Source: Hydrogenovibrio crunogenus
GTDB lineage: Bacteria; Pseudomonadota; Gammaproteobacteria; Thiomicrospirales; Thiomicrospiraceae
Length of the DNA: 64,000 nucleotides
NCBI RefSeq assembly: GCF_004786015.1
Contig: NZ_CP032096.1
Coordinates: forward strand, 496,001 to 560,000
Direction of reading: 5' to 3'
A program made the translations under genes and the position numbers. Shown here piece by piece: positions 1 to 54,993 of this stretch. Position 1 is the stretch's first letter. Each line of letters starts with the position of its first letter. The notes below the pieces were generated by a model, which saw nothing but the letters and a program-made list of their open reading frames with translations, was not told the origin of the DNA and searched no databases.

Positions 1-432
1 TTTAACGATGATACTGTTGGGTTTGATAGCTCTTCATATACAGTCGCCGGTATCGTATCCTGGAAAATCACTGACTTCGGAATTACCTCTAATCGAATTA
101 ATAAAGCACGGGCGGCCGCTCGACAAAAACAAGCGGCGTTACGTTCACAAGAAAACCAAACCCGTTTGGCGGTTCTAAAATCCTGGCGCACATTGAAAGT
201 GGCTGAAAAACAAGTATCTTCTAACCGTTTGGCGGTTGAACAAGCTGAAGAAGCACAACGCCTTATTATGAAACGATACAAGAACGGTGTGTCGACGATG
301 ACAGAAGTCTTGGCCAGTCAAGCGCAATTGGATAAAGCCAGGGCAGATTTGGTTCAATCGATTTTTGAAAAGAACATTCATAAAGCGAAATTGCGTTTAG
401 AAGCCGGTGTTATGAGCATTGACCAATTGTAA
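1..432 (+). CDS. TolC-family outer membrane efflux protein, 3' part
   Basis: Reading frame 1 is open from the first base to the stop at 430-432, giving the last 143 residues of a protein whose start lies outside the window. The visible part has the long, Ala/Gln/Glu-rich helices of the outer membrane efflux protein (OEP/TolC) family, with the typical RY..G..t..evL.aQ..L..A stretch near residues 88-112. It is followed 63 bases later by a membrane fusion protein and an RND permease, so it is most likely the outer membrane channel of that tripartite exporter. Family is clear; substrate is unknown. Confidence 0.85.
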   Translation, partial: FNDDTVGFDSSSYTVAGIVSWKITDFGITSNRINKARAAARQKQAALRSQENQTRLAVLKSWRTLKVAEKQVSSNRLAVEQAEEAQRLIMKRYKNGVSTMTEVLASQAQLDKARADLVQSIFEKNIHKAKLRLEAGVMSIDQL

Positions 433-17110: not shown

Positions 17111-18822
17111 GTTATGCCATCGATCGTCAAGCTTATGCCGAGATGTATGGGCCAACCGTGGGTGACAAAGTTCGTCTAGGCGATACTGAACTGCTGATTG
17201 AAGTGGAAAAAGATTTTACGACTTATGGTGAAGAGGTCAAGTTTGGCGGTGGGAAAGTCATTCGCGATGGAATGGGACAAGGGCAAGGCTGTGCCGGTAC
17301 GGTAGTTGATACGATTATTACCAATGTGCTTATTTTGGATACATGGGGCATTGTAAAAGCGGATATCGGCATTAAAGAGGGCTTTATTGTCGGTATTGGT
17401 AAAGCAGGCAACTCTGATATTCAACCTGATGTTGATTTTGAAATTGGCCCCGGAACAGAAGTAATTGCAGGTGAGGGGCAAATTATAACAGCAGGGGGAA
17501 TTGATTCTCATATTCATTTTATTTGTCCGCAACAAGTAGAAGAAGCTTTAATGTCGGGTGTGACGACAATGTTGGGTGGTGGAACAGGCCCGGCAGCAGG
17601 AACCAATGCAACGACTTGTACGTCAGGTGTTTGGTATATGCATCGCATGTTAGAAGCAGCAGAAGACTTGCCAATGAATATTGGGTTTTTAGGCAAGGGG
17701 AATGCTTCTTTGCCTGAGCCTTTAAAAGAACAGGTTGAAGCCGGTGCTATTGGTTTGAAATTACATGAAGATTGGGGAACTACGCCCGCCGCAATTGATA
17801 ATTGCTTAGCGGTTGCGGATGAATACGATGTTCAGGTTGCGATTCACACCGATACCTTAAATGAGTCGGGTTTTGTAGAAAGTACCTTAGGTGCCTTGAA
17901 GGGACGAACCATTCATACCTATCATACTGAGGGGGCTGGCGGCGGTCATGCACCGGATATTATTAAAGCGTGCGGTTTAAGTAATGTTTTACCTTCTTCA
18001 ACCAATCCAACACGCCCATTTACGGTAAATACCATTGATGAGCATTTGGATATGCTGATGGTGTGCCATCATTTAGACCCCAATATTGTTGAAGACGTGG
18101 CATTTGCCGAATCTAGGATTCGTCGTGAAACGATTGCAGCGGAAGATATTTTTCATGATTTGGGTGCGTTTTCTATGATCTCATCAGATTCGCAAGCAAT
18201 GGGGCGAGTGGGGGAGGTTATCACGCGTACTTGGCAGACAGCCCATAAAATGAAAGTACAGCGAGGGCCGCTAGTGCCTGAAGGTGCGCCTCCTGTTAAT
18301 AACGACAATTTTAGAGCGAAGCGCTATGTGGCGAAGTACACCATTAATCCTGCTATAACGCATGGAATAGGTCATGTGGTGGGGTCAATAGAGGTGGGAA
18401 AACTGGCCGATTTAGTGTTATGGAAGCCAGCCTTTTTTGCGACCAAACCATCGATGATTATTAAAGGTGGAATGATTGTGGCGGCTCCAATGGGGGATGC
18501 GAATGCATCAATTCCAACGCCTCAACCCGTGCATTATCGCAACATGTTTGCAGCACATGGTAAAGCCATTTTTAAAACCGCCATCACCTTTGTTTCGCAG
18601 GCCGCGTTTGAGGCTGATATTCAGTCTCAATTAGGATTGCAAAAATGGGTGATGCCAGTCAAAAACACTAGAAACATTAGCAAAGCCGATATGGTGTTGA
18701 ATGATTTTCAACCAGATGTGTCGGTTGATCCGGAAACCTATGTGGTTAAAGCTAATGGTGAATTATTATCTTGTGAGCCGATGGCTGAGTTACCACTGGC
18801 GCAACGCTACTTTTTGTTTTAA
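17107..18822 (+). CDS. ureC: Urease alpha subunit (catalytic)
   Basis: A 571-residue amidohydrolase-fold catalytic subunit, usual length. All nickel-site residues are seen: HIHF (metal His pair about 135-137), the lysine to be carbamylated K218 in GLKLHEDWG with H220 next to it, the HTDTLNE and [15 protein letters not shown] His residues, the flap His in VCHHLDP and the Asp in SSDSQAMGR. The enzyme should be active. It is in the middle of the operon with 28 bases to ureE. Confidence 0.98.
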
Positions 18823-53627: not shown

Positions 53628-54572
53628 GTGCCTTTTTGGTTTGAAAAACATGAAATGCGACGCTTCCGGCGCGTTGACATCCCTGTAAAAATTTATATCA
53701 CACCAAATGAAGCGATTAAGGATCAGCAGATCTTTGCGTATGGTATTGATTATTTCCCACCGACTAAAATAAAAAAGATTAAAAAAGCAAAAAGAGAAAT
53801 GCATCATTGGGTCGGTCTGATTCAGGAGCAGAAAGATATTTTAGCCCCTTTTTTTGATGACTTTGAAACCTATATTGAATTTTTTAAGGAGTGGGTTCAA
53901 GCATTGTCTGAAGGACAGTCCCCGAGAGCCAGTAAAAAAGATTGGTTGACGTTTCATGCCTATGCAAAAGGCGTTCAGAAGATTCAATCCTTGGCAACCT
54001 CTGCCCCTAAAACCTTTCAATACTTTGAGCGTCTCAATCAGAAACTGATAACTCATTTCGAGCATATGGCAAAGTGTGCGGAACAATCGACGTCTTCCCA
54101 CTTCGTCTTGCCTAAAATGCTGCCTGAGCATTTTGCCATTGATGACATGAAAAAACGTTTTGAATCACCATCGGCTCAAAAAGTTCCTTTAATTCAGTCT
54201 TTGTATCATTTGTATTTATATATGTCGTATACCTTTGATGCGTATGGAGAGCTGTTGCAAGATATTTGTTCTGACCAATCGCCTTCTTCTTGGCCTGAGG
54301 CGGAAGTGAATTTGAGTGCCGGAGGTGTGTCCATCAAACTGGATAAGCGCTATAAACCGAATATGCGATGTAAGATAACCCTTTATTTTACCGGGAGTAA
54401 GCGACTGTTCAAATTTCAGTCAACGCTTATCCGAGCGTTTTCTGTTCCGGAGTTTGAAGCAGAATGTAATGCCTTTAATTTTGATTTTCCAAACAGTCAG
54501 GATCAGCATTTGATTCAAATGGAAATTGAACAATTTGAAATTCGAAATAGTATGAGTGTGCAGTTGTCATGA
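53628..54572 (+). CDS. PilZ-related protein with split motif
   Basis: A 314-residue cytoplasmic protein. The RxxxR half of the PilZ c-di-GMP site is at residues 11-15 (RRFRR), at the usual start of a PilZ domain, but the D/NxSxxG half (NLSAGGV) is at about 228, so some 210 residues, mostly helical, lie between them; normally the gap is about 25-30. Either a helical domain is inserted in one PilZ domain or the N-terminal arginines act with the C-terminal barrel (222-314) across the fold. Start GTG 53628 chosen for AAAAAGG 7 bases upstream. c-di-GMP binding is inferred. Confidence 0.72.
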   Translation: MPFWFEKHEMRRFRRVDIPVKIYITPNEAIKDQQIFAYGIDYFPPTKIKKIKKAKREMHHWVGLIQEQKDILAPFFDDFETYIEFFKEWVQALSEGQSPRASKKDWLTFHAYAKGVQKIQSLATSAPKTFQYFERLNQKLITHFEHMAKCAEQSTSSHFVLPKMLPEHFAIDDMKKRFESPSAQKVPLIQSLYHLYLYMSYTFDAYGELLQDICSDQSPSSWPEAEVNLSAGGVSIKLDKRYKPNMRCKITLYFTGSKRLFKFQSTLIRAFSVPEFEAECNAFNFDFPNSQDQHLIQMEIEQFEIRNSMSVQLS

Positions 54573-54597
54573 TTTTGTGGCAAGGAGGGAGGGACAA

Positions 54598-54993
54598 GTG
54601 GCAAATAGTGTAGAACCGACATTTATGAATGGGTTGTCTTTTACTTTAAGGCCGGTGGCAACTGAACTTTTCAATATGCATTTGCTAAAAGAGTTGTTAG
54701 AGATTAGACAAGGAAAAGTTCCTTCCTCTTTAGTTCAAAAATATACGATGTCACAAGAACAATGGGTCGAGGTCAGCAATGTGGTGATTTTAACCAAGTT
54801 GTCTCAATTCACGATATCAAAAGAATTGAAATTGGATTATGTCGAGCATCTGCAGGATGTTTTGCGTGCGGTATTGGATATGGAAGGGGCAACATTCGAA
54901 GAAGTCCATCAGGCAATTCAATATTACCAAGCCAATGTCTTAGCTGATTGGTATAGAAGATTACAAAAACACCACACTTATCAACTCCGTTAG
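54598..54993 (+). CDS. Hypothetical helical protein
   Basis: A 131-residue protein I do not recognise. It is predicted largely helical, without signal peptide or membrane segment, with an Ala/Leu/Glu pattern (VEHLQDVLRAVLDMEGATFEEVHQAIQYYQANVLADWYRRLQ). GTG 54598 lies behind a very strong GGAGGGAGGG (54584-54593); an upstream open frame has none. It starts 25 bases after the PilZ-like gene and is probably cotranscribed, so the two may act together. Confidence 0.7.
   Translation: MANSVEPTFMNGLSFTLRPVATELFNMHLLKELLEIRQGKVPSSLVQKYTMSQEQWVEVSNVVILTKLSQFTISKELKLDYVEHLQDVLRAVLDMEGATFEEVHQAIQYYQANVLADWYRRLQKHHTYQLR

Follow-up and report, generated by a model that had tools for sequence, protein, structure and literature searches.

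In the PilZ domains of YcgR, MotI and Alg44, the two halves of the motif for cyclic di-GMP (c-di-GMP) lie close together, and in PilZ domains generally c-di-GMP orders the arginine-bearing N-terminus against the barrel. The described systems closest to the locus treated here carry an insert in that barrel. The tPilZ protein XCC6012 (PDB 3RQA/3PH1, PF16823) is reported to have incomplete motifs, to form a tetramer, to be encoded beside flagellar genes and to carry, between strands 1 and 2, an insert of two helices and 57 residues (PMC3131395). The YcgR-GAZ protein of Leptospira bears a GAF-like domain after strand 1 and the RxxxR sequence, keeps both motifs and binds c-di-GMP by isothermal titration calorimetry, while YcgR homologues have one to three predicted helices in the same loop, with the motifs kept in several (PMC11800159). 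Here we analyse a two-gene locus in a 64,000-nucleotide stretch of the Hydrogenovibrio crunogenus genome (contig NZ_CP032096.1, positions 496,001 to 560,000; hereafter the window). Its first gene (53628..54572, plus strand, GTG start) encodes a 314-residue PilZ-type protein with a long helical insert, recognised by its relatives and by a Pfam PilZ match below the cut-off, and the second (54598..54993, plus strand, GTG at 54598, stop at 54993) encodes a predicted all-helical protein of 131 residues with no known family. We regard it as rather probable that the two genes are one c-di-GMP effector module, in which a PilZ receptor with a helical insert and a partner of its own form a pair controlled by c-di-GMP. 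No description of this long-insert PilZ/partner family was found in the literature searched, judged by titles and the openings of abstracts, and a search for PilZ together with Hydrogenovibrio found nothing.

Translation from the GTG at 53628, a start position that close relatives share (MAFWFEK..), bears out the two motif halves that a sequence-only reading of this DNA had pointed to: RRFRR at residues 11-15 (53658..53672, plus strand), the N-terminal RxxxR half, and NLSAGG at residues 228-233 (54309..54326, plus strand), the second, [DN]xSxxG half. That reading had put them about 210 residues apart instead of about 25-30; the measured spacing is 217 residues, against 26 in L001 and L002, which are ordinary PilZ proteins encoded in this genome, and 97 in a 191-residue PilZ protein also encoded there (L003). 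Among 27 divergent members of the family, with 14-42% identity to the window protein, six columns are invariant (R11, R15, W222, S230, G233 and F285), four of which are motif positions drawn from both halves (hypergeometric P 1.9e-7, a value computed after the fact on members collected by motif-containing profiles). The same positions hold in the 99 long-insert PilZ rows from the fetched loci, where R11 is found in 95/95 and R15 in 94/94 of the rows with a letter there, S230 in 97/98 and G233 in 99/99. The spacing, measurable in 92 of these rows, is 217 (37 rows), 214 (25), 220 (14) or within 201-219 (16), and the seven rows without the full pattern comprise six with gaps in motif positions (in four of these, whose starts are provisional, every arginine is gapped) and one, L099, that has lost the serine.

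Pfam PilZ (PF07238) matches the window protein only in its C-terminal half, residues 219-296, and the score misses the curated cut-off (20.8 vs 22.5 bits), which two paralogues in the same genome pass. At E <= 0.001 the model matches 24 of the 27 members of our A7 set, the window protein included. With the tPilZ model PF16823 the window protein had no match at E <= 1 and none was listed at 0.001 among the 27 A7 members, and the PilZN domain of YcgR is absent from the window protein, where the PilZ model alone matched in Pfam and only 14 residues precede R15. The protein is thus a PilZ member by its motifs and predicted fold, and by profile neither tPilZ nor YcgR. It has to be considered whether such a PilZ scaffold works without c-di-GMP, the barrel being structural, the insert making an oligomer, and the partner or another protein carrying the signal. 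XCC6012, the closest solved architecture, speaks for this and against our reading, since its insert at the same place goes with a tetramer and no reliable c-di-GMP isotherm was reported for it, though its motifs are incomplete (PMC3131395). Many type-A members, moreover, have G232 replaced (NxSASG, NxSACG), though this position is outside the motif. Near-invariant motifs would nevertheless be unexpected in the long-insert family had binding been lost, and YcgR-GAZ is reported to bind c-di-GMP despite its insert (PMC11800159), so that we hold a scaffold of this kind to be rather unlikely.

The predicted fold reunites the separated motif halves. The AlphaFold2 model of the 314-residue protein, built on a 28-row alignment, has a predicted local distance difference test (pLDDT) score of 90.1 and a predicted template modelling score of 0.86, with a mean pLDDT of 49 over residues 1-10 and 82 over residues 11-20. 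It places strand 1 of the barrel at residues 16-26 (53673..53705; pLDDT 82 for residues 11-20 and 93 for 21-30), an inserted helical bundle at 45-214 (53760..54269), the remaining PilZ barrel at 224-285 (54297..54482), where structure comparison and Pfam agree with the model, and a C-terminal helix at 290-309 (54495..54554), all on the plus strand. Foldseek matched the model to PilZ chains with a probability of about 1, but a best E of only 2.3e-3. With VIA-align 2 the PilZ chains scored Z 10-12.5 overall, including MotI (Z 12.5, root-mean-square deviation 2.8, 108 residues, model 9..309), XCC6012 (Z 12.2, 2.3, 109 residues, model 10..310), c-di-GMP-bound Alg44 (Z 11.7, 2.5, 104 residues) and c-di-GMP-bound YcgR (Z 11.4, 2.4, 107 residues); these four alignments start at model residues 9-10 and stop at 307-314. 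In those of the best 15 rows that are for c-di-GMP-bound PilZ chains the alignment starts at model residues 6-10 and ends at 306-314 with 102-114 residues aligned; most of the insert is therefore skipped. These comparisons support a single PilZ barrel interrupted after strand 1 by a helical bundle of about 170 residues, in the model at least. The arginines would lie near their usual PilZ position, judged by the first aligned residues: the row for 4rt1 begins with model residue 9 at chain residue 15 and, if ungapped, would set R11/R15 on R17/R21, the RxxxR of Alg44.

Of the two arrangements that the sequence-only reading had offered, the model favours a helical domain inserted in one PilZ domain, with strand 16-26 and strands 224-285 in one fold and the helices 45-214 between them; two partial domains forming one site is a reading that the single-chain model, as one PilZ fold, does not need. 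Arginines far from the barrel, the outcome named there as counting against a shared site, were not seen in the model. A related idea is that partial PilZ domains at both ends complete each other between subunits, by domain swap, and the XCC6012 case is in its favour, because inserts at this place can drive oligomers. Given that a high-confidence model of one chain makes one PilZ fold, and that the N-terminal piece consists of one strand and the arginines, we consider such a swap very improbable.

The second gene starts 25 nt after the PilZ gene and has a strong ribosome site, as had been read from the letters alone; this site, AAGGAGG (54582..54588, plus strand), lies 9 nt before its GTG. AAGGAGG occurs six times in the window on both strands against a chance mean of 5.8, so that only the position of this site is telling. 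The protein also kept its earlier description as being of unknown family. Pfam gave only weak matches on 24 partner members, none common to two of them, and no strong match came from NCBIfam, PADLOC or PDB sequences; the single weak matches (tyr_de_CO2_C, DUF1699, Anticodon_1, NagB_SO3506, DUF919, DUF4647, DUF5958 and PRD) were rejected as family assignments. A role in defence was dropped, with no PADLOC match, as was the idea that the partner repeats the inserted bundle of the receptor (hhalign of A1 against A2, probability 0.7%). Its predicted model (pLDDT 95.5) had no Foldseek match at E <= 0.001 and no VIA-align match at Z >= 5. Outside the family the partner profile is silent, for the three matching genomes among 369 of the class are all family members and the one among 398 of the phylum is the window's own.

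What ties this protein to the receptor is comparative evidence. Across the 62 genomes of the order there are 128 partner matches, of which 93 have a long-insert PilZ on their own strand no more than 700 nt away and 35 lie apart from any, the PilZ list having been compiled by hand from the type-A and type-B profile matches listed, with the short-insert matches of about 200 residues excluded. The partner follows the PilZ in 81 of the 93 and precedes it in 12, nine of which are inside fused open reading frames (ORFs). Ten such fused ORFs, of 463-475 residues, carry the partner domain first (E 5e-7 to 2e-16, with 98-133 of the 137 positions of its profile covered) and then the PilZ protein (E 6e-19 to 7e-25, the match beginning at profile positions 6-8 and ending at 308-311), and in three genomes (G071, G050 and G072) separate partner and PilZ genes stand in the order of the fusions. 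Distances between receptors also mirror those between partners: over 65 pairs from the fetched loci, fused pairs included, the correlation is r 0.903, whereas 2000 rounds in which paralogous pairs within a genome exchanged their partners, in 20 genomes, gave a mean of 0.444 (sd 0.070, highest 0.783). For type A alone, with 47 pairs, r is 0.915 against 0.635 after swapping (highest 0.882). Fusion, linkage in many genomes and mirrored distances thus support, at the level of sequence, the earlier view of the 131-residue protein as a real partner of the long-insert PilZ. They suggest coevolution of the receptor with a small helical partner of its own and, for the Hydrogenovibrio/Thiomicrorhabdus group, a two-protein c-di-GMP switch that is as yet undescribed. 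The second gene might instead be merely co-transcribed and act alone, with no complex, and its own strong ribosome site would fit that, as would a paralogue apart from any listed PilZ in 35 of the 62 genomes. The ten natural fusions and the distances that mirror each other better than swaps speak against independent action, and the lone paralogue occurs only alongside PilZ-B, which makes mere co-transcription, to our minds, quite improbable. In L029 and L031 a tandem of two type-A PilZ genes is followed by one partner gene.

The window's genome encodes three long-insert receptors (two of type A and one of type B) and three partners. The hhalign alignment of types A and B (99.7%) runs through the insert, from residue 8 to residue 311. 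The third partner stands away from any PilZ, and it is probably the partner of type B. Among the matches listed, a lone partner is present in 35 of the 62 genomes, all 35 with PilZ-B, while 23 lack both and four drafts (G008, G060, G064 and G065) have PilZ-B without a lone partner; Fisher's P for this count is 2.9e-13, with shared ancestry ignored. In genus g2 (four genomes) a partner gene follows a PilZ whose type-B profile score exceeds its type-A score. In quick trees, whose long branches were flagged by the tool, the g2 partner groups with the lone partners (99*), a position with the main type-A partners being rejected (p 0.019), and the g2 PilZ joins type B (support 93). A sister relation of the g2 PilZ to type B could not be upheld, since placements beside A or C are equally good (p 0.588). 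The PilZ placement being equivocal, the pairing of the lone partner with type B rests mainly on co-occurrence. In four loci checked, the lone partner adjoins a phosphoribosyltransferase gene (apt by eye); in L130, L132, L133 and L149 its neighbour on the other side is, by eye, either a surface-protein-like ORF of great length or a kinase-like ORF with such an ORF behind it. The type-B PilZ of the window's genome, the third long-insert receptor there (L036:10069-10995), is convergent, tail to tail, with the second pair, and its final codons run into the end of that pair's partner ORF.

Besides the equal placements of the g2 PilZ, other observations weigh against dedicated pairing. The g2 partner may acceptably join the C partners (p 0.297). 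Four type-A/C rows have no adjoining partner match among the matches listed; two of these are tandem copies, one is fused (G021, L147) and one is a 479-residue ORF (G018, known by its length). The type-B2 receptors, separated from B by score and by position beside an A pair, have no assigned partner match among those listed, so that pairing is not universal, and L099, which is among the three B2 members read, is the row that lost S230. None of these three (L092, L093 and L099) has an adjacent partner, and L099 precedes a gene for a BFD-like [2Fe-2S] protein. Finally, short-insert PilZ relatives elsewhere have no detectable partner in the 369 class and 398 phylum genomes.

Profile matches in the order are found in 61 of 62 genomes for type A, for the partner and for type B alike, figures that are not per-type counts for the two PilZ profiles, as these cross-match each other and short-insert PilZ proteins. 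Relatives with names, from eight loci, belong to Hydrogenovibrio, Thiomicrorhabdus and one Piscirickettsiaceae metagenome-assembled genome. Of the 369 class genomes, 88 have PilZ matches to the widened A7 profile: the three of the family and 85 among the remaining 366. In these 85 the match is mainly over the C-terminal half and most of the ORFs are 190-250 residues long, and the motif spacing is 96-104 in seven of 12 short-insert proteins examined, those in which it was measurable. The long insert is likely a grown version of this widespread short insert. Against PDB sequences A7 matched one spike-derived construct (E 0.0011, three weak stretches), which was judged to be chance. One short ORF and one weak match were left out of the collection of relatives, and duplicates, PilZ ORFs of <240 residues and partner stretches of <=90 residues out of the alignment sets.

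From the sequence, conservation, linkage, fusion and predicted fold we infer c-di-GMP binding, complex formation and an output, as follows. Folding would unite RRFRR and NLSAGG in one ordinary PilZ binding site, where c-di-GMP, by ordering the arginine segment, could shift the insert, since strand 1 joins it directly. The small helical partner, to go by fusion, linkage and mirrored distances, would bind its own receptor, and c-di-GMP would control the next action of the pair. The likeliest output may be control of flagellar motility, a suggestion we make with little confidence. A stronger form of it makes the module a YcgR-like brake on the flagellar motor, in place of YcgR. Consistent with this, the YcgR domain is absent from the five listed PilZ proteins of the window's genome (by Pfam, PilZ alone in four and PilZ with HDOD in the fifth), the pair follows FliD, FliS and FliT-like genes in L095, and in L097, as in the window's own genome (L179), a short-insert relative lies downstream of the genes for FlgA, FlgM and FlgN. 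The only genome of the 62 without module matches, G015, also has no FliG_C matches, and carries a single GGDEF domain, where 13 other genomes tested carry 9-49. However, the absence in G015 counts as one event, and L095 is the one locus where the pair has flagellar neighbours, the other contexts read being without them. Most copies read, the window's included, are among non-flagellar genes, and no motor-binding feature was identified, so that a brake of this kind is possible but on balance doubtful. Flagellar context was rejected as a rule: among the g6 pairs examined (L045, L095, L180, L181 and L182) only L095 has such genes. Four drafts (G020, G040, G055 and G067) have weak FliG_C matches only and keep the module genes. 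At L178:2658-3620 (G000:C1 ~2014657-2015619) lie two tandem 154-residue proteins, each with FliG_C alone (E ~1.7e-7), by sequence a putative orphan FliG C-terminal-like pair in the window's genome; weak FliG_C matches in close pairs recur across many genomes of the order.

Upstream of 53628 are genes for a phospholipase A1 and a patatin, and a scan of the region for promoters and terminators gave counts about equal to those in shuffled sequence. Elsewhere in the window, on the minus strand at 17259-17545, there is a match to the Rfam family 5_ureB_sRNA (80.8 bits). The plus strand there resembles, by eye, the coding sequence of a urease alpha subunit, and the match may therefore reflect conservation of the gene, not a small RNA.

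A broader view, to which we give an even chance, is that these are lineage-specific two-protein c-di-GMP switches, the insert being a gated docking platform for a partner of unseen fold, arranged as operon, fusion or separated pair, with several insulated pairs per cell. The dedicated, undescribed partner is to us the most interesting part. The locus would add a further kind of PilZ insert, larger and with motifs intact, and a partner known from genetics alone, a feature missing in many PilZ receptors; several paralogous pairs per genome and the natural fusion would offer a ready system for testing the specificity of c-di-GMP receptors.

Compared with the known systems, the window protein resembles tPilZ XCC6012 in having, in its model, a helical insert between strands 1 and 2, but differs from that protein, with its short coiled coil, in its intact motifs, an insert about three times longer and a dedicated partner. 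With YcgR-GAZ it shares an insert after strand 1 and motifs that are kept; unlike that protein, with its GAF-like insert and PilZN in front, it gave no PilZN match, its insert is larger and predicted to be all-helical, and its partner is a protein apart. The gammaproteobacterial short-insert PilZ proteins of about 200 residues, such as L003, have the same succession of RxxxR, insert and [DN]xSxxG, with an insert half as long and no partner found outside the family. The PilZ domains of YcgR, MotI and Alg44 have the same barrel and c-di-GMP motifs, in their case without the insert and with other accessory domains.
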